Below, piece after piece: positions 1 through 54,400 of a DNA stretch of 64,000 nt (positions are counted from its first letter, which is position 1; each line of letters opens with the position of its first letter). The notes below the pieces were generated by a model. That model saw nothing but the letters and a program-made list of their open reading frames with translations, searched no databases and was not told where the DNA came from. The DNA lies in assembly GCA_016748015.1 (NCBI GenBank), contig JAAOMT010000523.1:1443462-1507461 (forward strand), written 5' to 3'. A program made the position numbers and the translations under genes. The stretch is from Geosiphon pyriformis. Taxonomy: Eukaryota > Glomeromycota > Glomeromycetes > Archaeosporales > Geosiphonaceae.

Positions 1-845
1 TCTATTGGAGTAATATCAGGACTTTGTGCTGGCCAAGGAAGTAATTCAACATTTGAAGAGGTAAGAAAAGAACGCGCGACTTTTGATGTGTGGATTGGTG
101 CATTGTCTTCCTGAAAAAAAAACTTTTTTTAGCTTTTTTTGCATGAAGTTTTACCGTAGGAATTGCATAATTAGCCAAGGTTTCGCGGTGTATAACTCCA
201 GTAATATGACCAACCAAAGAAACTAAAGGACCCAAACCAACCCATGAAAAACATCCCCAAAACATGCGACCAAAGCTTTTTCTAACTGTGGCTGCAATAC
301 AATCCTTATGAAACTCTTCGGAAGGTTTACGCCATACACGTCCAAATCCTGTAGTTCTAAATTGTGTATATGTAGATTCATCTGACCAAAAAACTCGTTT
401 AAAATCTTCTACTGTCCAATTTTCATAAGTACGAGCCCATTGTAAACGTTTTTCTTTATTTGATTTGGAAATTAATAGCTTGAGACGAGGAATACACGAG
501 CGAAGTCCTTGAGCTAATCCATTTCGAATAGTTTGTATAGAAATAGATTTGTTGGTATCTTTAATAAAATTTAATCGTATTTGAGAAAGAGATTGGCGGC
601 GGGTTTCTTTATTCTCCATTATTGAATATTTGAGTTGTTCACGTGCGCGTTTGTCAAGAATTTGTGGTCGGCCCGTTCGTTTTTTAGGAAGTTTTTTTTA
701 GCTCGTATGACTTCCATACACGTATTACAGAAGAACGTGAACATCTAATAGTCGTGGAAATCTCACTGTTTGTATGTCCTAACTTTTTTGCTGAAATAAT
801 CCCTCCTTTTTGGTATTCAGAAAGTTCTTTTCCAAGACATATTTG
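1..845 (-). pseudogene. Tc1/mariner transposase relic, truncated by the window edge
   Basis: This is a DDE transposase of a Tc1-like element, read on the minus strand. The order is a helix-turn-helix part (about 845-690), a KKRTGRP linker (about 690), a second DNA-binding part, then the catalytic core. The first catalytic Asp is in FWSDEST. WGCFSWVGLGPLV follows, then QEDNAPIHTS, and LPWPAQSPDITPI runs off the left edge just before the expected final acidic residue. At least two frame breaks are visible. One is in a run of A near 693, between the first HTH and the GRP linker. The other is in a run of T near 113-128, just before QEDNAPIHTS, so the open frame of 205 codons ends in the wrong phase. 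The copy is therefore dead as sequenced. Its outer end is probably the terminal repeat at 1031-1058. The left end lies outside the window. Confidence 0.88.
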
Positions 846-4037: not shown

Positions 4038-4131
4038 CCACAAATTTGTGGCTACAGGTAAATTTACAAAGAAAATCATTGTAGCGCAAACTCTCTATTA
4101 ACTAATAATTTTTTTAAAACTTATCTTTGAA

Positions 4132-4930
4132 ATGCCGACTTCAAAGCAAGAAACGCAACGGCAAGTCGTATTACATTTTTGGAAGCAAGGAATACGAAAG
4201 GCGAAAGAAATACAGAATAAAACGAATATACCCCTTTCTACAATCTATAATATCCTCGAAAAACTCAAAAAAAAAAGAACAATAAAGCATACAACTGGTA
4301 ATGGTTGGCCAAGAAAGATTATGGGAAATTTTTCGAAAGTATTAGTGCAGATTATTCGTAGAGATTCCTCAGTTTCGTCTAGATATTTAGCAATAAAGTT
4401 GGCTAAGAAGGGAATAAATATTTCTCATGTTACTATTCAAAACCATTTATCCAATCTTAATTATAATAAAAGTCTTCCTAGAGCAACTCCAATGCTGACC
4501 AAAGAGCATAAGCGAAAACGTGTAGAATGGGCCAAAAAACACCGGAACGACGATTGGAAAAGAACAGTTTTTACTGACGAAACATCTTTTCAACTTTTTC
4601 AAAACACGGTAAAACGTTGGCATAAAGGTACTCGACCAATTCGTCCTATGCCTAAAGATCAAACAAAAATTCTCGCATGGGAAGGGGGGGGGGGGGTTTC
4701 TACGAAAAAGGAAAGACTAGTTTATTCTGTTTTGTTCAAATAATGAATGCTAATTTTATATAGATATTCTTTGTAACCAATTACCTGAAATTAGAGCAAT
4801 GCTGGGGGATAATTGGCGATTCTAACTAGCAAGCTTGCCAAAGAATTTATTGGTGGGGTGGCCATCTAATAGTCCCGACTTAATTGGGTTAGTAGGACAA
4901 TGAGGCGGCGTTGTGAAAGAATTTCCTATA
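4132..4930 (+). pseudogene. Tc1/mariner transposase relic
   Basis: The first 203 codons are open. They start MPTSKQETQRQVVLHFWKQG, an HTH of the Tc1 type, and continue with LSTIYNILEKL, a second DNA-binding half with HVTIQNHLSNL, and the first catalytic block RTVFTDETSFQLF (about residues 144-156). The frame then leaves the family at a run of ten G (4684-4693), just after the KILAW position. Downstream, shifted and stop-interrupted frames give DNW (where the second Asp block D-N-D-P-K-H should be), LASLPKN and WPSNSPDL, the usual stretch before the final acidic residue. The copy is dead by frameshift, substitution and stops. No convincing terminal repeats were found. It belongs to a different Tc1 subfamily from the copy at the left edge. 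Confidence 0.82.
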
Positions 4931-9493: not shown

Positions 9494-10651
9494 TTAATTA
9501 ATTAAACCACCTATTTCCCAATAACCATCAAATTCACCTTTTTTAAAAGCGCTCAGGAAGCATCTAAAAGAATAATGAAGATCTCGTGTAAAAGTCCAGT
9601 CTTTGATTCCGGAATATATTCTTCCCAATGTCATTAAACTTTCCCCATTTCCTCCAGCGGCAGACTTTTTATACCAATAGAAAGCTTTCATCAAATCTCG
9701 CTTGCAACCTTTTCCGAATTCATAAGATTCTCCTAATTTATTTTGCCCATCAACGTCATCATTTAAAGCTGATTTCAGATACCAGTAATGAGCCATTTCT
9801 TTATTTTGCTCAATCCCAATTCCTCGACTGTAACAATAGGCAAGATTATATTGACCACATTCATCACCAGCCTGAGCTCCCATTTGATACCAATAAACAG
9901 CCAGGGAATTATCTTCTAGGACGCCAGTGCCGTCTTGATAACAGCATCCTACTGAATTGTAAGCCATACTATTTCCAGCTCGTAGAGATTTTTTAAACCA
10001 ATAAAATGCCGTTTCATAATTTACTTCAACTCCAGTTCCGGCATGATAACAATGTCCCAGATTATATTGACCAGTGGTGAATCCTTGTAGGGCACTCTCG
10101 GTAAACCAATAAACGGCCAATTTTAAATCTTGTTTTATCCCTGTCCCATCTCGATAACATCTACCGAGAAAGTTTTGACTATAGGCATCACCTTCGTTTG
10201 CTAATATCGTATAATATTCAAATGCTTTTTGAAAATTTTTTTCGGTCCCAATTTCATATTCATAACAGAAGCCAACCAAGTTTAATAATTTTGGTGTTTG
10301 TTTTGCTTGTTGATGCAACTCTGCGAAGAATTCTGGGAGTTGAATCTGCATATTTCGATCATTGATCCATTGAATTATTTTTGGTGGTAGTTTTGGAAGA
10401 TAGGTTCCTTGTTCAATCCAATTAAAAAATAATTTAGAAACATCTTCTATCAGAACAGTATTAGGATCAAGTTTGGAGCTCATTTTTGAACCATCTTTAG
10501 TTGGAGCAAGGTAAGATTGATGGTAAGAAACTGGAGTCAAAATTTTTCGTTCCATATCTTGATTATTAGGGGTAGCCGTGTTTGGGATTGGAATCAATTG
10601 GTTTTTGGATGAAATAATCGGAACAGGCTCTCCTAAATCATTTGGGTCCAT
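9494..10651 (-). CDS. SEL1-repeat protein
   Basis: A single exon of 385 codons starting MDPNDLGEPVPI. Residues 1-65 are polar and probably disordered. Residues 68-120 form a helical segment (EDVSKLFFNWIEQG..LPKLPPKIIQWI) often seen ahead of SEL1 arrays in these fungi. From about residue 122 there are seven SEL1-like repeats of roughly 36 residues, with the usual L-G-x-C-Y-x-x-G-x-G and A-x-x-W-Y-x-K-S-A pattern. Examples are LGRCYRDGTGIKQDLKLAVYW, LGHCYHAGTGV and LGESYEFGKGC. SEL1 arrays are alpha-solenoids that bind other proteins, and no catalytic domain is present. It was probably once, or is still, related to the kinase-SEL1 proteins of this lineage, such as the gene at 28650. Its stop codon lies in a TTAA/GAAT microsatellite. 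Confidence 0.92.
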   Translation of the reverse strand: MDPNDLGEPVPIISSKNQLIPIPNTATPNNQDMERKILTPVSYHQSYLAPTKDGSKMSSKLDPNTVLIEDVSKLFFNWIEQGTYLPKLPPKIIQWINDRNMQIQLPEFFAELHQQAKQTPKLLNLVGFCYEYEIGTEKNFQKAFEYYTILANEGDAYSQNFLGRCYRDGTGIKQDLKLAVYWFTESALQGFTTGQYNLGHCYHAGTGVEVNYETAFYWFKKSLRAGNSMAYNSVGCCYQDGTGVLEDNSLAVYWYQMGAQAGDECGQYNLAYCYSRGIGIEQNKEMAHYWYLKSALNDDVDGQNKLGESYEFGKGCKRDLMKAFYWYKKSAAGGNGESLMTLGRIYSGIKDWTFTRDLHYSFRCFLSAFKKGEFDGYWEIGGLIN

Positions 10652-10916
10652 TTTTCATTTTTTGATAAGTCATTAAAAATTAGGGAATGAAAAGAGTGTT
10701 AATATATTTTCCTATTGTTTGTTGTGCAATTATATCATCACAGTATGCTGATCAGTAAATGCAGAGATGGTCTATATTGAAGCTTAAAAAATTTTAATTT
10801 TCAAAGGTCCAAATGATATACCATTATTTAATCTGATTAGTAAATTAAAAAACGAATAAAATTTGTATTCTAAAGGGTTGCAAACACTTTTGATTTTTTT
10901 TATCAACAACAACATC

Positions 10917-13386: not shown

Positions 13387-15798
13387 ATGCTTTTGGTGCA
13401 AAAATTTTCTTTTTTTAGTTTACTTCTATTCCTGTATTCTCAATATGATGTCAACTCTATGCCGCTTTTTGAGGAAGATGGATTTGATTCTTATTTTCGA
13501 ATGACCATAATTCATACCAATGATGTTCATTCACGTGTAGACCAAATCAATGAAGCTGCCACAGATTGCACTCCTGAACAATTCGCTAAAAGTCAATGTT
13601 ATGGCGGAACAGCTCGTCATAAAACTGTCATTGATCGATTACGAAGAAGAGGCAAATTCTTTTCTTTGTTGATGGATGGTGGTGATGAGTTTCAAGGTGA
13701 GCGGTTCAAGTGACTCTAACTTCCCATTCAAAATTTATAAAAGTTTCAGCTAATTCTTTATAAATTTGCAATTAATTAAAAAAGGAACCATGTTTTATAC
13801 TTATTACAAGGTAAGGAAAAGTATTTTCACATGATCAACTTTTTGTTCTAGTTTAAAGAAGATCCTTTTACAATATTCTTATCTACCTTAACAAGGGAAA
13901 TGTCACATCTCAAGTGATGGTAAGTTATTACTTGTCGCTTAGATTTTAAATATTCATTTGTATCTTACTAATAATTTTTAATGTTTCCTATAGAATCTCC
14001 TCGGATATAACATAACGGTAAATATTTATATCACTTTCTTTTATTTTTGATCGATTGCTTCTATACGATTGATCTCAATTCTATTTTATATAGGCCATCG
14101 GTAATCATGAATTTGATAACGGTCCTGATGTCTTGGCTGAACATTTTAAACGGCTAAACGCTTATATCGTATGTGCGAATATTGATGCCAGTAAAAATCC
14201 TAACCTCGGACAGTATATAAAACCGTATCATATATTTGAAGAATATGGTATCGCAGTCATTGGATATATTACGAAGGTATCAATCACAATTAGGTTCTCT
14301 ATGAATTATCCGGACTTCAGATATTCACTAAAATTTTCATTTCTTATGAGTTTAGACTGCCGGTGGAATTTCGAATGCTGGTCCAACATTATCTTTCAGT
14401 GATCCTATTCCAATCGTTCAAAAGTACGTTGATGAACTTCACGCCAAGGGCATCAAACGGATATTGACCCTTTCCCACAATGGTTATGATCAAGACAAGA
14501 TACTCGCAGCAAATACGCACGGTGTTGCCGTACATGTTGGTGGGCATAGTCATTCATTTTTGTCGAGTAGAGTCGATGATGCTAATATCGCGGCAGGTCC
14601 TTATCCAACTATTATTAAAAATGCTAAAGGTGAAGATACTTTGATAGTTCAGGTATATTTCATATTTAAATCGAATATTATAAAATTTTATCTGTATCAT
14701 TAAACTATAGTTATTGAATGTTCAATTTTAGGCTTTTTGGTCTGGAAAATATATTGGCCATTTAGATATCGTCTTGGATTCTCAAGGAAAGGTAGTCGCT
14801 TACAGAGGCGAACCTATCCTTATCGATCAATCAATTCCTCAAGATTTATACGTGAAAAAGCTTGTTAGCGCTTGGCGAAAACCTTTTGATGAACACAGCA
14901 AAACCGTAATTGGTGAAGCACAAGATAACTTTGATCAAACTAGATGCCAAAAATTCGAATGTGAGATGGGTAACCTTGTTGCTGATTCTATGTTATGGGC
15001 GAGATCGAAAAATAGCGATGTAGTTGCTGCTTTCATCAATTCTGGTGGTATACGTGCAGGATTGTTAAAAGGAAATGTTACCATTGGAAATACTGTGACC
15101 ATCTTGCCCTTTGGAAACCGTTTAGTTGAAATCAAGCTTTCAGGGCAAAATATTACGGATATGCTTGAGAATGTTGTTGGTAGAAAGGTTAACAAAATTT
15201 CGGGGAAGCCAGTGACAAGCTTCATTCAAGTTTCTGGAATTCAGTTCCAGTATGATTCGTCGAAAGAAATCTATAAAAGAATAGTAATGGTTAAAATCTG
15301 GGATCCTACCCTCAAACAATATACTTTGATTGATCCACTCAAAATATATACAATTGTTACAGTGGATTTTACTGCAAGAACTGGTGATGGGTATGTAATT
15401 TATTTCAAAGAAAAAAATGGCCCACTTCAAAGTTGGTTTATTGTATTTTCTCTAAAATTTATTTTGTTTCTTGCAGCATACTTCCATACCATATTGGAAA
15501 CTTGGTTCGATTCGAGGATGATGCTGTGACGTTGCAACAATTTCTACGGAATAAAACGATTATAAAACCTTATTTGAAGGAGCGAATTAGTGACATTTCG
15601 TCAAAAGTTCAGATCTTTCAAGTTCTATTACCGGGCACCCCATTACATTATGCTTACACGAAAGCAACCAGCCCCATTGATGTGGAACTGCCGTCACCGA
15701 AACATTATAAAAATATTCTCTTTAGCCAAAAATATTCTCAAGTGACTGTTCAGTTTACGAATTTGGTTTCTTTCTTTAAAAATAAAAATTATACATAA
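13387..15798 (+). CDS. Secreted 5'-nucleotidase (metallophosphoesterase plus C-terminal domain)
   Basis: Eight exons: 13387-13696, 13785-13810, 13896-13919, 13994-14017, 14094-14276, 14356-14652, 14732-15390 and 15477-15798. All phases agree and give 614 residues. A signal peptide (LLVQKFSFFSLLLFLYSQYD) comes first. All metal-binding motifs of the family are present: IIHTNDVHSR (D-x-H), LMDGGDEFQG, AIGNHEFDNG, LTLSHNGYD and HVGGHSHSFL. The C-terminal nucleotidase domain has FINSGGIRAG and a TARTGDG turn before GILPYHIGN. Enzymes of this type remove the phosphate from extracellular AMP or other nucleotides, so a role in purine or phosphate scavenging at the cell surface is likely. Exons 2-4 are very short (24-26 bp), which automatic predictors may miss. 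No C-terminal hydrophobic tail for a GPI anchor is seen. The gene looks intact. Confidence 0.95.
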
Positions 15799-25252: not shown

Positions 25253-26035
25253 CTATAATAGAAAAGCACACTTGGAAAATAGAGACAACATTTGAGACAA
25301 TTCGTTTCCATTATTTGAAGGTATAACATTATTTGTGGGATTTTTGTTGCCATTTGCATTATTATTAATATTTGGGTCTGCCATAACTTTAGGACGTGTG
25401 CCGCGATAAATCTTCGAGGCTAACTTTTCATCGTGGTTGCAATTAAAAAATGTCATTTTTCCGGTTGCTACCCTATATATAATCATCCCAAAACTGTAAA
25501 TATCGGTTGGAGCAGATCTGGTTCCTCCTATTAAAATTTCTGGGGCAAGATATGGCAAACTGCAGCTTGTTCATTCCAATAGAGTCTTAAGTCCCGATAA
25601 TTTGAAATTGATACCTGACCTGATATCGTCGAAGAATTTCAAGGTTGAAAATTGTGTGAGGAGTTGCTTTCGTCGCTCGAAATCTTGTTCTTGCCTTGCA
25701 CTGGAGGCACAGGGGGTGATATCAACATTTGAGAAGTTTTACTAAATTTTTCCCTGCGTTCTGAGATTCATTGACAGGATAGAAACAGCCAATATCATTT
25801 AAATACAAATAACTGGGATGTTTTAGATTAAAAATTATTGTTTCCTTCGTGTAGATTGCCATGAATTAATCCTGCACTATGAAGGGCTGATAATGCAATC
25901 GCAATTTCATACAGAATTTCAAATTTCTTCATTCAGCTAATTTCATGGAACGGCAAGCCAGCCTCCATTACAAGAATGAAATTTTTAGTATTAGGTTCTG
26001 GAATATCCCATAGCATAATGGAGTATGTCTCCGAA
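25253..26035 (-). pseudogene. Protein kinase relic
   Basis: Pieces of a kinase domain of the type expanded in mycorrhizal fungi appear in order on the minus strand. They are EPNTKNFILVMEAG (about 25985), IALSALHSAGLIHGNLHEGN (about 25890-25850), KLSGLKTLLE then a stop (about 25610), and an open 101-codon end starting MPYLAPEILIGGTRSAPTDI and continuing IYSFGMIIYRVATGK and HDEKLASKIYRGTRPKV. The catalytic loop reads H-G-N where active kinases have H-R-D, so the catalytic base is lost. The DFG region is also unrecognisable, an in-frame TGA precedes the APE segment, and the last third of the domain is missing. Dead as an enzyme and as a gene. Confidence 0.75.
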
Positions 26036-28649: not shown

Positions 28650-31121
28650 ATGCCGAAGCAGCACATTCCCCGAAAAGCGTCTCAATCAATTGACGGATAT
28701 TTGACGCCACCTGTGGATGAAAAGAATCCCATATTTTCACAAATGCTTGATATCACTGGAACTACAGTTGTTACCATAGATGCTACTGTCAGCACGGCAG
28801 GAAACTTTATGGGAGTAATGTCAGCTGTTGGCAGTGCTGCTGGTCAAGTTGGAGCGATGGCAACCTTCGCTACCTTTGTTCCTTTAATTTCAGATGTTTT
28901 AAGATTGGTCGAAGGAATGGTACAACTTTACCAACAAGCCGAACACAATAAACGTATATGTGGTGTACTATTGGATCGTGTATTCGCAGCCGAAGCAGCC
29001 GTGAAAAATTTGCAAGTTCGAAAAAATGAACACATGGATTTTTTCAAAAATAACGAAAACTATCGAATTTTTCAGAATTTTCGAAATAATATTGAGAAAA
29101 TAAAACGATTTATAGAAGACATTTCACAGATTAAAGGGTTGCGCAAATTCACTCAAGGATATTTACAAGCTAATGCCATTAAGAAAACTTTCAAAGAACT
29201 TACAAAAGAGTTTGATGGCTATATGCAAACGTTGCAATTTACAATCACTATCGAGATTCATGCACAACAACAGAAAGATGGTGAGGTTTTGGATCAAGAT
29301 ATCAACGAATTAAAGCAAGTAAGTACTCTACGTATCATGCTAGATTAAACATTTTTTATTATTAGTGATGAATGATTAATAGTTACTTCTCTTAGTACCT
29401 GAGCGATATAGAAGGTGGAATTACGGATATACGCGGAGATATTTCTCTTGCTATTGAGAGGATTGATCTTTTGGCTAGGTTGTTCCTTAAACAACCTCCA
29501 GAGCTGTCGAGTTCGTCATCACTCCCAATCTCCACTGATCAACCTCTTGAAATCTCCGCCTTTACACCTCCAGAAAGTCAAAAGGGTAAAGTACAGAAAC
29601 GTATCAGGAAGGCGGATTATGAAGAGGCTGCTTTCAAAGAGCTTACTTTAGAAACGTTACCCCATGATATTTACACCCAAGTCACAATTCTCAAGAAACT
29701 GCAAGATTCTAAAAATATAATCAGATTTTATGGTCTGGCAAAAGAAAATGAGAAATTATATTTGGTTACGGAATGGGCTGAGCACCGAAGTTTGAAAGAA
29801 TATTATACAAATTATTCGAACCTTTACGATTGGAGAAAGAAAATTGAGTTTGCCCTTGACATTTGTCGTGGTTTGAGCTTTCTGCAAGCGGTTAACATCC
29901 TTCATCATGATATTCGAAGCGAAAATGTACTCGTCCTTCAAACCGGGAAGGCAAAAATCGCTAATTTTGGGTTATCACGTGGGTTCAGTCAGGCCACGAA
30001 AAATATTGCAGCAAATGTTGAGAATGTTCGTTATATGGCTCCTGAAAAAATAATTGATCGTAGATATCGTTATGATTGCAAATGTGAAATTTATAGGTTT
30101 GTTATTTTTAGCTCAAGTCTTTTTGTTATTGTTGTTGTTGTTGTTGAACAAGAAATTGAACATGGACAAATTTATTCCTTTCATATTTTTACAGTTTTGG
30201 AATGCTTTTATGGGAGATTTATGAAAAGAAAATTCCATATAGTAATATTCTTAATGACATAGTGAAAATTCGGGAAATCGTGGTAAATAAGAAAATGCGT
30301 GAAACTTGGACATCCCCAAATACTCCGTCCGAATACAAGAAGGTTTATAATCAGGGTAAGATTTTTGTGAAAAATCTTTTTGAAATTTTCAATGATCAAC
30401 TTTAACCTAATTTTCCCATTGTGAAATAGCTGTCCATGATGATCCCAGTCTGCGACCATCCATTTCAGATATTTTCAAAATGTTAGTTCCTCTTTGGAAA
30501 AACGTTCAGCCACCCCCATCACCGAGAATGGTTCCATTAAGGAATAATTCTCAATTTTCTGAATCAGAAAAAGGTGATAGTGATAATGAAGGCGATAGTG
30601 ATGAAGATTGTAGCATTGAACCCCCAAGGATACCTCTACAAGAAGCAATTAGGGAACACAAAAAGAAGGATGGAGATAAAAAGAAAGCATGGGATGCTTT
30701 TCAATATTATAAAAATATTGGAGATATTCAAGCGAAATATTGGGTTGGTTACTACCTTTACTATGACATTCTCAAATTTCCTGAAACAGAGTATAGTAAA
30801 GAAGAACGTCTTCAAGAGTCAGCTAAACTTTTCAAAGAAAGTGCCGATGAATGTGGGATGCAGGAAGCTCAACTTCGGTATGGTTATTGTTTATGGCATG
30901 GTCACGGGGTTGAGAAAGATATACCTGAGGCAATTAATTACTTTGAAAGGTCAGCTGATAATGGAAATGCTACGGCTATGTATAATGTTGGAAATGTTTA
31001 TTACAACGGAATAGGGGTTGAACCTGATATTCAAAAAGGGGAACAATATTTAATCATGGGTGCTTATAATGGACAACCGAAAGCGAGAGAAATGTGCGAT
31101 GAGAAGGGAATCAAATTGTGA
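28650..31121 (+). CDS. Helical bundle - pseudokinase - SEL1 protein (MLKL-like order)
   Basis: Exons 28650-29318, 29396-30096, 30195-30355 and 30430-31121, phases consistent, 740 residues. Residues about 25-245 are helical: an Ala/Gly-rich stretch (VSTAGNFMGVMSAVGSAAGQ), then VPLISDVLRLVEGMVQLYQQ and later helices. This resembles the N-terminal four-helix bundle region of MLKL-like and fungal HeLo-like proteins. Residues about 285-545 are a kinase fold: AAFKEL (ATP-site Lys), NIIRFYGL, ILHHDIRSENVLV (H-H-D for H-R-D), then KIANFGLS, where NFG replaces DFG, and VRYMAPEKI, IYSFGMLLWEIYEKKIPYS and a late LRPSISDIFKML. No glycine-rich loop is visible. The metal-binding Asp is therefore absent and the domain is probably a pseudokinase. 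The C-terminus has SEL1 repeats (LRYGYCLWHGHGVEKDIPEA, VGNVYYNGIGVEPDIQKGEQ). It is likely a signalling or membrane-acting protein; a cell-death role is only inference by analogy. Confidence 0.88.
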
Positions 31122-34818: not shown

Positions 34819-36331
34819 TCATGTGATGCATGAGCCCATTGGAACCCCATAATATTCATTTATTTGGTCATTTAAGACATTATTAATTTGCAATGAACCC
34901 TGACTTGTTGTTTGAAATTTATAACTGTTTACACAATTCTGTAAAAATATTAAAAAATAAAACTAAATAAAATTTAATTATTCTTTACCAATTCAAAGTA
35001 GTATTAATATTTATAACACATTACCTCATTTTCTTTTACACTGGTACTTATACATCGATATGTCTCTTTACCATTTAGGAAAAATTCTTCAGAGTGATGT
35101 TTGTAATTTCTTTCGCGTTCTGGTATTAGAGGTAGTTTATCGGATAACTTTGTCATACGATATATATTTGGATTATACTTTTTGCTAAAAACACTGTCAA
35201 CGTAGTTGGCAAATTCTACGTTGCCTATACGAGGTTGACCATAAGTGTACACAGTAACTTCTCTTTCGGGATAAGCCTCTTTGAACGATAATGCGCTCAA
35301 AACTGCAAACACTAGTAAAAAATTTCTTTGTTTGAATATTCGATGAGATTGAAATATTTTATTATCATAGTTCATATCGATATGAAGTAAAAATGACCTA
35401 CCACCGCCTAAGCTGTGCCCAACGAAAAAAATTGACATGTCACGATTTAACTTTGAAATCTTTCTTGATAAAACATTAATCAACCTTCCACGAATCCATA
35501 AAAATTCTTTGTAAATTTCTCTATGAATCATGGCGTCTTGAACTCTTCGACCTTTCCAAGTTATGTAAAACGTTTGACGGTTATTTTTAAATAAATTGGG
35601 TAAATCTTTATTGTTTCCTCGAAACACAACATTTATACTGTTAATATCTTCAACATCTATCTGAACTTATTTTTTGAAAAAGTGAGTTTAAAATAAGACT
35701 TGATTTCTAGGTGACAAAATAGTTAAAATCCGAAGCTTCTCTTACCATCTACTCGATTGGATAAAGAAATGATTTCTTCTTTTAAACAATATATATACCC
35801 TGCGTATTCGGCATACTTGCGAATTTTCCATAGTGTTTGAACATCATTGACAAGCGATGGTTTGAATGCATTTTTTCCAAAATTTACTATAAGTTCAAAG
35901 AGATTTTTCCAATCTTCGATAGTAAATTCTCGCCGAGTATTTCCCAAAATATCTTCTTCCTTTTTCAGAATCTTATCAGAACCAGGTTTAATATTAATTG
36001 ATTGGTTTTCTGGCAGATAAGAAATATCTGAATAATCATTTTCGATATTTTTTGTAATGATTGATGTGTCTTGAAATATTGAATCAGAGTTCATTTGAGT
36101 AAGATCTTTTTCAGCAGATAACACTTTTGAATCATCAAAAGATTTTAACACTCCTTGAAGCTCTTCCTGTTCTTTATATATGGTCAATGTTGGTTCTATA
36201 CTACTAAACTTTCTTTGTGATGAGAATGGTTCCTCATTCAAAAAATTTTTAAACGCATGACTTATCATAATTTTTGAAATAATATAAATCAATGTAATCC
36301 ATAAAAATATAGTTGAAATTTTTTCGTTCAT
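34819..36331 (-). CDS. Class-3 lipase, paralogue of the convergent neighbour
   Basis: Exons 35746-36331, 35402-35665, 35025-35311 and 34819-34938; phases fit and give 418 residues. The start at 36331 (MNEKISTIFLWITLIYIISK) is chosen because it opens a signal sequence; the frame stays open upstream to 36538 but only through low-complexity codons. A Ser/Glu/Asp-rich stretch is followed by the lipase domain: IRKYAEYAGYIYCLKEEI, NVVFRGNN (oxyanion strand), FFVGHSLGGG (nucleophile elbow), YTYGQPRIGN, TKLSDKLPLIP (Asp) and NYKHHSEEFF (His). The last exon gives NCVNSYKF.. and ends YYGVPMGSCIT, not the usual H-x-GPYYG. Intron positions and phases match the other two lipases in the window, so the three share an ancestor. 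Probably an active secreted lipase or esterase. Confidence 0.9.
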
Positions 36332-48539: not shown

Positions 48540-51215
48540 TATACTTTTAAGCCAGCTTGATTTATTCCATTCAACCGCACAAGTGATGATAACACGAGAT
48601 TGATTTTTCCCGGCCCACATGATACATATTCTAGTTTTGACATTGAAGGCGTTACCAGAGGGAACATCCGGGGTAGTGGTGGTACAAACTGTTGTTACGT
48701 AACTGAAAAGAATTTATTTTTCAGATTACAATTAATCTCAATTTGAAAAAGAAATTCAAAATTTTAAAAAACTTACTTTTCAAAATCACGATGAAGACAT
48801 TCTTCTTCAAATAAACATTTGGTACGCTTGGGACCAATTGAAAAGTCCAGTTTCTTCATATAAGAAGATGAACGAGTTAAATGCCCGCGATCTGCTTCAG
48901 CCCATTCCCCAATTTGTACTTCTAAAAAAGAGAAGAATTTTAGCCGAATGATTCCATGAAATTCGATAATTTTAAAATTTTTCGAATTGCCTACCAGTCG
49001 CCTTTTCAACATTCAACAAGAAATCTTGAAAGAATCCACAAGTAAAAAGCAAATTATAAATTTTTTCAACACTTCCAGCAAAAACGGAGTCTAACGCGGT
49101 GTTTGAATAGTGATCGTTTGTATCGAGACAATGACAACTGGTCGGCTGTCTTGATTTCTTTACGGGGTTAGTGGATTTATTTGAATGTCTTTTTTTTGGA
49201 TGTATAATTGGTCGAGGTGAAAGTTCTGAATTCATGGGTGTTTGAGCCAAATCTTGGGATGTTGAACGATGTGGTGCTTCAATTTGAGGTGATGGTGGTG
49301 GTGATTTATTGTCGTTGGTACTTTCAGAGATATTACCTTCGCGACGAGTTCGATTTTTGATATTCAGACGTGGAAATAATTTCTTTTTTCCAAATAATCG
49401 TTTCGTACCTGTATTAAAATTTTATTTTTGAATACATACAAGCCAACCTGAAAGGTGATAATTGAATTTGAAATAAGAAAATTTACCATCATGATCTTCA
49501 GAGCAGTAATCATCCTCTGTGCCCGAAACCTCACTTAATGAATTTTTTTCTCGCTTATATGACTCGCTACGATATAGTTTACACTCAGGTCCGGGGGCGA
49601 AAGAAATTTGTGAGCCCATCGAGGGATGTGAAACTCGCCATAATTTATTCAATAAATCATAAACAGAGTCACGCGATAATAAAGAAGCGAAGAAAAACTA
49701 TTTGTGATGATAAAATATAAATAAAAAGGTCGCGTAAATAAATTGATCGACAGGAGTCTCGAGAAATGTACCTTAAATTTGAAACGTACCTTCTGCGTTA
49801 AAGTAGATATCAAGATCGCATTTGGAATAATCAAGGCACTAGTTTTCTTTTCGATCGAGACAATATCCGAAAAATCGATTATTACGTCTGTTGTCCAGCC
49901 GAAAATATTTGCATGAAAGCAAATGTGTTGTAAAGTAATATACATTCTTCCTTGTGCCAATATTTCTCGTTGCAATGCACAGCGGTAGTCTGTCAAAATA
50001 TTTTTTTGAATATAACAAAGTAAGGGAAAATGATACAAAGAATGAGGCCAAATCATACCTACCATTAATAAGATACTCATCAGATGGTACTGAATCAAAC
50101 AAAGTATGATAAGCTTTGTTGCGTTTTTGGCTTGTAACCACATACGAAGTTAAAACTGGTGTGCCATCGGACAAAACAATCGACAACGAGGCATAATTTC
50201 GTTTCTGTTTTTTTTTAGTTTGAGCTTCTTCTGGATGCTTTGCTAGAGAAAATCGATAGTTGGAAGATTTAGAAAGTCGTGGTGTCGATGTAGTTATTGG
50301 GGGTGCTTCAGTTATTTGATTCGCATCTGTTATCATTGTGGGTAAGGTATCCTCATTTTTTAAAGGTAAAGTAACATTCTCTCCAGATTCAATAAAACTA
50401 GTTGGTTTCATGAATACAGGATCATGAGCAGGAGCAGGAGCAGGAGCAGCAGAAGCAGAAGCAGAAGCAGAAGCAGAAGTAGCAGTAGCAGTAGCAGTAG
50501 CAGTAGCAAGACTAGAATTTTTATTGTCAGTGGAAGGAGTTTTAAAATTTTGAAATTTCATAGCATTGATTGATGGGGGGAAAGAGATTCTTGTCATTGA
50601 TACTGTTGGTGATGATGCAGCACTATTTGACGGAGTTGCAGACGACACAGCAACACTAGAGCGACGACGATGAGAAATTGAAGTTTTGCGATGTAATTCA
50701 TCACTAATTCTTGAGATCAAACTATTTCGCTTAGATTTTCCCGCATCTTTTCCTAAACTTGTCGTTGTCCAATCAAAATCTAATGGAATTTCCAATGAAT
50801 TCATTTCTATGTTTGAGAAAGAAATTTCACCTCTTGATAAAGAAGATGAATTTATATGATTTTCACTTGATTGTTGTTGTTGTTGTTGTTTATGAGTTGT
50901 GGGAGAATTGGGATTTGTTGAAGAAGATGAATTCGGCTTATCGTCAGGAGGCGTTTCTGGTGCCTCAGAATTTGATAAAAAATAGCTCGGGGAAGTTGGT
51001 GATGGGATGATATCTTGTTGAGACTTTTTAGCTGCGTTAGGTGGGCTTGGAGGTGGAGTTGAAGCAGCATCAATATGGTAAGAAGCCGCCGAAATATTCT
51101 CGGAATCAGGGAAACCTAATGGTATTTCAATTGATAGGTTTGGGATTATTTTGGTACCAGTAGTCTTTAATCTGGAGTTCTTTCTTGGTGAAGAAGTAGA
51201 CAAAGATACTAGACC

Positions 51216-51259
<44 letters not shown>

Positions 51260-51401
51260 TAGGTGATTTTGAAATTTTTGGTGATAAAGGAGTGGAGTGC
51301 CTTTTTGATGATGATGATGATTTTTTAGTAGTTACAGTCCTGTGTTGATATTGATTCTTTTTTCTTGGACAGGTGAACCTTGGCGTCATTGTTTCAGACA
51401 T
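47738..51401 (-). CDS. GRAM-VASt sterol-transfer membrane protein (Lam/Ysp2 type)
   Basis: Seven exons: 50063-51401, 49790-49989, 49487-49697, 48995-49408, 48777-48921, 48545-48702 and 47738-48444. All phases agree and give 1057 residues. Residues 1-420 are low-complexity (Ser, Thr, Pro, Gln) and phosphosite-rich. A GRAM domain follows at about 425-545: HTLFDSVPSDEYLIN, then CALQREILAQGRMYITLQHI and the typical FHANIFGWTTDVIIDFSDIV. A basic linker leads to a VASt domain (about 655-860): DSVFAGSVEKIYNLLFTCGF, IGEWAEADRGHLTRSSSYMK, CLFEEECLHRDF, then VEWNKSSWLK. A transmembrane helix (FIVIGLLVMLLINTYLIYEL) lies near the C-terminus, followed by a helical tail. Proteins of this order sit in the ER at contact sites with the plasma membrane and carry sterol through the VASt domain. 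The gene looks intact. Several microsatellites lie in exon 1 and in intron 6. Confidence 0.93.
48503..48539. repeat. (AAT)n microsatellite in intron 6 of the GRAM-VASt gene
   Basis: About 37 bases of pure AAT repeats near the donor side of the intron 48445-48544. Confidence 0.9.
50426..50508 (-). repeat. Coding triplet tract in the GRAM-VASt gene
   Basis: Repeated GCAGNA/GCAGGA hexamers translate, on the minus strand, to alternating ATATATA, SASASA and APAPAP. This is a slippage-prone tract inside the disordered N-terminal region, where length changes in multiples of three are tolerated. Confidence 0.85.
51217..51262 (-). repeat. (AGT)n tract coding for poly-Thr in the GRAM-VASt gene
   Basis: About 46 bases of TAG/AGT triplets encode an uninterrupted run of 15 Thr near residues 48-62. 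The opposite strand gives an artefactual poly-Val frame. Confidence 0.9.
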
Positions 51402-54400
51402 TTGATTTAAAAATTCATAATAATTAACAAAAAGAATATTTAATAGGAATTTTTTGAAAGAACAGTTAACTAAATATGAAAAAGGAAAAGTTTTTTAAAT
51501 TTTGTTTTGGTTATCGTTCTTTTTTTTGAACCCTTTGGCAAAACAAGAAAATTTCAAAGTTTCTTTTTTTACAAGAAAACTTTGCAAAGAATTCAATGGA
51601 GGAAATGAATTTTTTGGGGACGATTGTTAAATAATTAATTTATCGATCGTCAAAACGTGTGCAAATGTTAATAAAGTTTATAATCTCTTGAAGATTATGT
51701 TTCTTATTATAATTAAAAAACTTTGCTGAATAATTCTTTTCCGAAAAAAAATCTTTTGTGCCAAGGGTTGTAGTTGGGAAAGGGGATGATGTCGTAAATT
51801 CTATCAAAATTGTGTATATGAAAGAGTTACTGTCGGCAGCAGTGCCAGAAAGGGACCATTATATAAACGGGATGTCATGCACATCAAAATTTGAGCGATG
51901 ATCAATGCTGGAATCAAAAGTACCAACTAATTGTAAGCTACTATTTTAAAAATGAAATCGATTGAACGTTTACTAATTTATTAATTTAAGATTTTCTAGT
52001 GGGATAATCTTTTTTTTTTACTTAACCCATTATCAAATACCAAATTGATTGGTATTGAAATAAAAATTTAATAGATACGTATGATGACATATTCTTAATG
52101 ATGTCGTTACTTACGGAATATTTTCTTCGAAAGTGCTGGGAAGGGACTTATAGGAACTAAGAATAATGTGATTAATAGTCACGGTTAAACTTTTATTCCT
52201 TTTAGACAGTGGAGGCCATTATTAAGGCTTAGTTAATATTTGATCCCGATTTTTGAAAAGAATCGAAAATTTTAAAATATTGGACTTGATTGATTCCCCC
52301 TTATTTTGAATCAGTTTAAAATTAAAAAATTTTAAAGACTTTTTGAATGATAAAAATCATTTAAATTATAATTTATAATTTATAATTTATAAAATAATAT
52401 AATAAAATAAAATAAAATATAATAATGTATAGGGATATTAAAGAGTTGCATATTTATTGCGATGATGCAATTTCTCTTTGGTAAATTTTTTTAATATAGA
52501 AAGATGAAGTCAGTTATACTATACTACTACATCTATTTAGTGATGGTGGGTTAGGGGTAAAAGAACGAAAATTAAAAATTTGTTAAAATAATGAAGCAGC
52601 TTAAAGTTGAAAAAAAATTTTTTAGTGTCATTATTGATTGTGGCGTTTACATTGTAGGGAATGTAGATCAGTCTTTTATTGTATATAATGAAAACAAATC
52701 AATTCTATTGATTTGTTACGACGACGACGACGACGGATATAAGTATATGCAAAAGGTTAAAATAATTACAGATCATCATAATCATCATCAACATCATAAA
52801 CATGAGTCAAATTTAATTCAAAATTTTTAGGTCAAAATTTTTTTTGAATAATTCTCAAAAGCTTGGTTTTAGAGAAATTGGGAAAATGTTACTAAACTTA
52901 CTAAGGTAAAGAAAATCAATGAAAATTTTCACGGATAAATATTACAAATCTAAAGTGACAAAAGAAGTTTCCAAATTTGTTTCGGAAAAGGGTTCCAAAA
53001 TTAAATTAAGAAATTACCAAGCAAAAAGTAATTATCTTGTTAAAATTAATAGAACCCATTATTATTGTCAATTTCTAGTTTAATACTGATTAGTAATTAT
53101 ATTATGGTTATATAAAGTTTGAAAGTAGAAAGATATTCTCGATAAAAAAAAAAATTGGGGGATTTGAATCTTTCTAAAATCTTTGTCCAAGATGAAGTAT
53201 CCACAAATAATTTTGAATTTGTCATCTTTTGCCAAATTAGTTTTGAGATAATCGATTTTGGTGGAGGTTTGAACTATTTTAAAATAAAAATATCTAAAAG
53301 TATGATATGAATGTTCTGACGCAAGTTTTATATCATCAATTTTAAGCGGGCGTTTTAGATTGATAGAAGGACATAGTTGATTTTTTTTTATTTTATTTTA
53401 TTTTATTTTATTTCCTTGGCAACTCTAATTTAAATTAATCCAGATTCAATCAGAAACTCCTCGATTCTACTCTTTTTTTAGTGAAAAAAAAATTTTTCGT
53501 TATATATTTTTCAATTTTAGAACTCTACCGATTTATCATCTATCTCCGTATATGAAATAAAATGACTAGCCTCTATTTCGGAACTACTAAATTACCCATT
53601 TGTTTTGCTGATCTCCCGAATAAGATATTCACAGGACAATAACTGCGCATAGTCAGAAATCTGTTTAATAGTTAGGCTAGAAAATCTTATACTAACTTTA
53701 TTTGAATGATTAGAGTTAATAATATGTTAATTATTTTGATCCACGAATTCAAAAACGTTATTTTATTAATAATTAATAACTTAAAGCAGCCTAAAGAATA
53801 AGCGGTGAAATTTAATTTTTGCTAACAATAAAATGATTTGGGCACTTTACTAAGTTCAAATATTTCAACTAATTGTTATAAAGATATTACTACTATTTAT
53901 TTATAGAAACTAAAGGTTGTTTTTTTTTTTGTTTTTTTTTTGTTTGATTGATTGTTTGATTGATTGTTTTGTTTGTTTTATCATTGTCGCAATGTGATAA
54001 ATGATCAATGATTATCATCTGATAAAAGAACCATTTGATGAGTAATTTAATAACTGATGAATGAAAAACGCATGTTATCATAAATTTTCGAGTATTATCT
54101 CATGTTTTAATTTAAGCATTCTTGAGAACTTTTTTTTTAAAATTTTTTTTTAGAGCATATAATAAATAATTGACAATTTTATATATCAGAATTTATTTAG
54201 TCACTAAGCTCATTAGTTTAAGTCTTTGAAACAATCAGCTGATAGGAAATTGTAAAATGTATACAAAAATTTTAAACATTTATTCAAAAATATTAAGTCT
54301 GGAAACTTTTATTTTAAATCTGTTAAATTTATATCCATTTTCGGCTCAAGATTAAATTTGGAATTCAATATTTATTTTAATGACACAAAGCTAATTGGTT

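Follow-up and report, generated by a model that had tools for sequence, protein, structure and literature searches.

A gene of the fungus Geosiphon pyriformis combining an MLKL-like N-terminal bundle, a pseudokinase and SEL1 repeats, and its family

Does a gene of Geosiphon pyriformis encode a protein built like MLKL, and do its bundle and its kinase half share one origin with the corresponding parts of MLKL? The question is raised by a locus in a 64,000-nucleotide stretch of DNA from this fungus (the whole stretch that was analysed, called the window below), which a first-pass annotation had read as one intact gene for a helical N-terminus, a pseudokinase and SEL1 repeats. Copies in the same genome are cited by working labels, and published papers from excerpts.

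Gene structure and copies in the genome

The gene at 28650-31121 (+) is intact, with three short GT-AG introns and 740 uninterrupted amino acids (Table 1). The four phase-consistent exons of the first-pass annotation were recovered as this spliced frame, and intron positions are common to paralogs. The intron at residue 224 (phase 0) has the same position and phase in L023-L028, the intron at residue 457 (phase 2) is also found in L024, L025, L027, L028, L030 and L040, and the intron at residue 511 (phase 1) in L023-L028 and L040. As all three recur at the same position and phase in several paralogs, the gene model is not a chance assembly. Junction 457 is missing from the gene models of L023 and L026, L030 has only this junction in common with the window gene and L062 has none, and in the frameshifted L031 the junctions are at 228 (phase 0), 457 (phase 1) and 511 (phase 0).

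Table 1. Features of the window gene, with one open frame of the C234 sibling for comparison
Feature	Position	Strand	Description
Exon 1	28650..29318	+	residues 1-223: N-terminal extension and MLKL_N-like helical bundle; open frame, donor GTAAGT
N-terminal extension	28650..28892	+	residues 1-81, before the MLKL_N match; hydrophobic end with PL[IML]
MLKL_N-like bundle	28893..29264	+	residues 82-205; PF22215 sub-threshold, family profile leads to MLKL
Intron 1	29319..29395	+	phase 0, after residue 223; place and phase common to L023-L028
Exon 2	29396..30096	+	brace-like linker and bulk of pseudokinase
Brace-like linker	in exon 2	+	residues 224-285, motif IEGGITD, from alignment A1; 'brace' suggested by position
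HHD replacing HRD	29903..29911	+	residues 393-395; sequence
NFG replacing DFG	29963..29971	+	residues 413-415; sequence
Intron 2	30097..30194	+	phase 2
Exon 3	30195..30355	+	pseudokinase C-lobe
Intron 3	30356..30429	+	phase 1
Exon 4	30430..31121	+	pseudokinase end, acidic linker, SEL1 repeats, stop
SEL1 repeats	30864..31079	+	about residues 656-727; PF08238 E 1.1e-17, two stretches; best stretch 656-690 from Pfam, remainder drawn by eye
C234 MLKL_N, glycine-rich loop and VALK	L063 1084-1806	-	one open frame; HRD and DFG next in spliced model

The gene belongs to a family. In the genome searched (124.7 Mb, 406 contigs), exon 1 gave 14 matches at E-values up to 0.01, and the MLKL_N profile (PF22215) gave 7 at E-values up to 0.1, four of them above the cut-off. 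Manual grouping resulted in 13 loci (window, C250, C399, four at C303, C402, C203, C219, C284, C234 and C107); in an additional copy, L040 at C402:65 kb, only the kinase and SEL1 part was seen. Wherever spliced models cover both, the bundle precedes the kinase. The four C303 copies (L025, L027, L029 and L031) span about 121 kb (about 21.6-142.3 kb), two of them degraded, and suggest birth-and-death turnover.

The window gene could itself be a decaying copy of an expanded family, without selected function; we consider this very unlikely. Four of the 12 aligned kinase rows contain stops or frameshifts or are fragmentary (L026, L029, L031 and L040), as decay would have it, and L023 has one stop, at a junction judged to be mis-modelled. 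Against decay, all 740 codons of the window copy are read without interruption and its splice sites are standard, and dN/dS is below 1 for close paralogs. NG86 values among L025 (modelled up to residue 683), L027 and L028, three copies whose models are free of stops and frameshifts, were 0.43-0.47 overall, which argues for constraint on these close paralogs despite the lost catalytic Asp; pairs with the degraded L026 gave 0.53-0.65, and the window gene was too diverged to compute.

Elsewhere in the window, two open frames, 2-697 (-) and 4102-4743 (+), each contain a Tc3-type transposase HTH domain, and there is a match to a 5'-nucleotidase C-terminal domain at 14732-15529 (+) and one to a class 3 lipase at 35004-35666 (-). 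A 551-aa open frame at 49839-51494 (-) overlaps 27-base and 3-base tandem repeats and had no Pfam match at E 0.001.

The N-terminal region and MLKL

On its own, the window sequence matches MLKL_N below the cut-off of 27 bits, both for exon 1 taken by itself (E 8.8e-4, 19.2 bits) and for the whole protein (E 0.0062, 16.5 bits). The MLKL-like N-terminus that had been proposed emerges at the level of the family. A profile of ten N-termini from the one genome (alignment A1: window, L023-L028, L030, L062 and L066) was compared with PDB sequences, counting matches up to E 10. Matches 1-7 of 16 were all MLKL (E 7.5e-13 to 6.8e-10), and the eighth was a LINE-1 ORF1 protein (E 7.6e-4). Nine of the ten A1 members matched MLKL_N at E-values up to 0.1 (best E 2.8e-13), and every other listed Pfam family was matched by at most two. 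C250 bridges the window gene to MLKL_N, as it matches exon 1 with E 8.6e-28 and MLKL_N with 36.7 bits, above the cut-off. Via the family profile, these sequence comparisons support homology of the window bundle to the N-terminal domain of MLKL.

The strength of the match depends on which members are included. With a control profile of five window-like sequences (window, L023, L024, L025 and L028), MLKL still took ranks 1-6 of 13 PDB matches, but only with E 0.0013-0.029. The strong E-value therefore leans on the sequences that were left out, namely L026, L027, L030, L062 and L066. Presumably L062 contributes most, as its own MLKL_N match has an E-value of 8e-13.

The N-terminus reads as helical, as the first-pass annotation had it, and Gly, Ala and Ser together make up 35% of residues 36-90. 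Small-xxx-small periodicity in the window protein was not significant, being reached in 9% of 2000 shuffles. A hydrophobic stretch directly precedes the first MLKL helix, with PL[IML] in 7 of the 10 A1 rows. Its 19-residue hydropathy maximum in the window protein is borderline (1.56 at residue 69, compared with 1.37-2.15 over the 8 rows measured), and we regard it as a candidate membrane element. Single-sequence structure models were poor (mean pLDDT 48.9 and 57.3), with no MLKL among the 50 matches listed.

MLKL and HET-S/HELL had both been suggested for comparison. The excerpts of PMC9815663 and PMC12881547 assign HeLo/HELL domains (HET-S, HELLP) and basidiomycete MLKL-like N-termini to one bundle superfamily with MLKL. 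HeLo (PF14479) and PF17111 were not among the 9 Pfam families listed for the window protein at E-values up to 10, in a listing from which HMMER filters drop most weak matches, and neither had a match genome-wide at E-values up to 0.1. NACHT and NB-ARC likewise had no genome-wide match at E-values up to 0.001. As the genome was searched exon by exon, the absence of these four domains is not proven. By profile, MLKL is therefore the closer comparison: the MLKL side of the suggestion is borne out by the family profile, and the HET-S/HELL side found no HeLo or PF17111 match in protein or genome.

Motifs and origin of the kinase half

The kinase domain is of TKL type (Pfam PK_Tyr_Ser-Thr, residues 299-528, E 7.5e-40). 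HHD and NFG replace HRD and DFG, just as the first-pass annotation had read them, and a glycine-rich loop, also reported as missing, was not seen by eye in the window kinase domain. The catalytic-loop Asp and Asn are kept in HHDIRSEN. By eye, the beta-3 Lys may correspond to Lys304 of the AAFK motif, and Gln takes the place of the alpha-C Glu.

Loss of the DFG Asp is a property of the family. Of the 14 family kinase domains examined (12 aligned rows, L066, and L063 of C234), only that of C234 keeps this residue, and the other 13, window included, lack it. The residue in its place is Asn in 11 of the 13, again including the window; L029 is degraded, and L024 has Gly if read without gaps (the aligner instead gapped L024 and brought a later Asn-Phe into register). 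HHD is found in 12 of these 13 domains, that of the window among them, and L062 has HKY. As to kinase loci L032-L061 (n = 30), a recognised motif was present in 21, either HHD with NF (seven loci, all family copies) or with the Asp kept (14 loci); the other nine had no recognised motif, and three of them are family (L034, L038 and L044). At the 20 kinase loci away from MLKL_N loci, 14 motifs were recognised and 14 of 14 keep the DFG Asp. Judged by motif in this one genome, the family kinase is a pseudokinase, as had been claimed for the window protein. The kept catalytic-loop residues and the possible beta-3 Lys could also belong to an unusual active kinase that binds Mg via another residue; this is very unlikely, as the DFG Asp is replaced and so, judged by eye, is the alpha-C Glu, as no glycine-rich loop is visible, and as the beta-3 Lys of L027 and the catalytic Asp of L062 are replaced as well. 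A weak translated match to the pseudokinase at 25430-25552 (-) of the window (43 aa, E 0.032) is perhaps a kinase fragment or due to chance.

C234 differs from these copies. Its MLKL_N match reaches 37.2 bits, over the cut-off, and the same 240-aa open frame contains a glycine-rich loop and VALK. Together with HRD and DFG, these motifs mark it as an apparently kinase-active sibling and a candidate partner of the pseudokinases. The C234 kinase ends in L069, and by eye no SEL1 was seen there in the three open frames of at least 60 aa.

Searches with the kinase half gave a less uniform picture than those with the bundle. For the window pseudokinase, the first 7 of 548 PDB matches were MLKL (best E 6.3e-26), with ITK close at 4.5e-24. 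For a profile of seven family kinases, chains of 7t6f, EGFR, BRAF and CTR1 ranked above MLKL (2e-42), 7t6f and EGFR each being matched over two domains; we take the 7t6f tyrosine kinase chain to be JAK. For the sister pseudokinase L066, FAK was best, and no MLKL was among the best 60 matches listed.

Kinase trees, sampled without RIPKs and plant MLKLs, depended on the comparators. With JAK as the only other outsider, human MLKL joined the fungal pseudokinases (92/93, flagged as long branches meeting), and did so again when L062 was omitted (87/79); in the latter tree, placement of MLKL with other fungal kinases was rejected (p-AU 0.027), as was placement of the pseudokinases with C234 (p-AU 0.045). 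When BRAF, CTR1, SRC-ABL, FAK and EGFR were added, human MLKL left the fungal clade for the animal and plant kinases (68/50 for the parting branch with L062, 89/86 without), and the fungal pseudokinases adjoined the active TKL-like kinases of the genome. These larger trees did not reject the union of MLKL and the fungal pseudokinases in a single clade (p-AU 0.435 and 0.273), nor did they reject MLKL with animal and plant kinases (p-AU 0.225 and 0.287). The clade of the fungal pseudokinases is well supported once L062 is omitted (100/97.9; 81/73 with it), and the C234 kinase groups with active fungal kinases (100/98 without L062).

Overall, the bundle is MLKL-related, and the pseudokinase may be shared with MLKL or independently acquired. 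Independent assembly, by fusion of an MLKL-type bundle with a fungal TKL kinase whose catalytic residues were lost later, is a substantial possibility, though short of probable. The positions of MLKL and of the fungal pseudokinases in the larger trees and that of the C234 kinase, which is also encoded next to MLKL_N, point this way, and a fusion of separate origin has a precedent in wheat Pm13 (PMC10951266, excerpts). Evidence to the contrary comes from the trees with fewer comparators, in which human MLKL falls into the fungal clade, and from the common clade that the larger trees did not reject. Independent assembly concerns origin rather than mechanism, and is compatible with an MLKL-type mechanism too.

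SEL1 repeats, proposed mechanism and known systems

In the window protein, Pfam places SEL1 repeats after the kinase domain, and the two stretches detected agree with the two or more repeats that had been noticed at first. Elsewhere, SEL1 repeats act as docking modules, and by analogy such a role is plausible here. They are very common in this genome, with at least 150 matches (150 of 150 scored, from 1991 first-look candidates), and need therefore not imply a death pathway. A separate 386-aa open frame of the window (9494-10654, -) has SEL1 as its sole Pfam match (six repeat stretches, E 7.7e-57). In the C399 paralog (L024), a repetitive Glu-rich, acidic tail (L024:4183-4881, +) replaces the SEL1 repeats that other members carry.

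We think that the window gene probably encodes an MLKL-type fungal protein, in which an MLKL-homologous bundle, a brace-like linker, a TKL pseudokinase switch and a SEL1 solenoid would make up a membrane-acting executor. The architecture, the N-terminal homology via the family profile and the loss of the DFG Asp in most members are observed, and each functional step is inferred from MLKL and plant MLKLs. The release of the MLKL bundle by its pseudokinase on a signal serves as a model by analogy (PMC12881547, excerpts). Most likely, as in MLKL and plant MLKLs, the pseudokinase would be a switch that holds the N-terminal bundle. The state of this switch would be changed from upstream, perhaps by an active kinase or by a SEL1-docked protein; the protein would then oligomerise and the bundle engage the membrane, which would kill the cell locally or send a signal at the membrane.

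Instead of an executor, the protein could be a signalling scaffold, its bundle oligomerising or auto-inhibiting, its pseudokinase and SEL1 repeats docking partners, and the membrane left untouched. The abundance of SEL1 in the genome, the borderline hydropathy of the window protein and the acidic tail of L024 are all in line with a scaffold; we nevertheless hold it to be rather unlikely, as every strong PDB match to the family profile is MLKL and the hydrophobic stretch is present in all 8 rows measured. A bolder variant of the executor model is a necroptosis-like circuit independent of NLR and HeLo proteins, in which active MLKL_N kinases such as C234 act on pseudokinase-SEL1 executors and the executors acquired and inactivated their pseudokinase separately from animal MLKL. 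We regard this circuit as doubtful; if it exists, a membrane bundle came under the control of a pseudokinase on more than one occasion.

The executor model invites comparison with known proteins. Animal MLKL (PF22215 and a TKL pseudokinase) has the same order of bundle, brace and pseudokinase, a homologous N-terminus and a lost DFG Asp. Unlike it, the window protein has C-terminal SEL1 repeats, a longer N-terminal extension and many copies, and we know of no RIPK3-type partner for the fungal protein. Plant MLKLs and wheat Pm13 also combine an MLKL N-terminal domain with a kinase, which Pm13 keeps intact, as the C234 sibling appears to; the excerpts of PMC10951266 do not mention SEL1 for them, and assign the Pm13 kinase to a plant receptor-like kinase group. 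Among fungal proteins, the basidiomycete MLKL-like forms have an additional N-terminal helix too (PMC9815663 and PMC12881547, excerpts), some HELL domains occur on kinase or pseudokinase proteins (PMC12881547, excerpts), and a Basidiobolus MLKL, ORX91397.1, is named in the excerpts of PMC11476962. HeLo/HELL effectors are characterised by a C-terminal amyloid motif; the C-terminus of the window protein is formed by SEL1 repeats.

The closest published description is in PMC8778642, whose excerpts report that the MLKL class (TCDB 1.A.105) is expanded specifically in Glomeromycotina, that its members possess Sel1, and that homologs of the family were found in this group alone. Domain combination, fungal group and family expansion are the same as here, and the window gene is therefore of an already published kind; catalytic motifs, gene structure and an active sibling are not described in the excerpted text. 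In a search that left most subscription papers outside, no other publication was found that combines MLKL, Sel1 and fungi. As far as the excerpts of PMC8778642, PMC12881547 and PMC11476962 show, what is new is the family-wide pseudokinase signature, together with a gene structure shared among copies, a sibling whose kinase is apparently active, and the lack of HeLo, PF17111, NACHT and NB-ARC matches in the genome.

In the excerpts of the literature cited, fungal cell-death systems are mainly of the HeLo/HELL and NLR types, and a 2025 review calls for wider study of fungal HeLo/4HB proteins (PMC12881547, excerpts). A full MLKL architecture with a kinase inactivated in most family members, in a genome with no HeLo, PF17111, NACHT or NB-ARC detected, would make it possible to test directly whether membrane killing gated by a pseudokinase is common to this fungus, animals and plants or has re-arisen outside the latter two.
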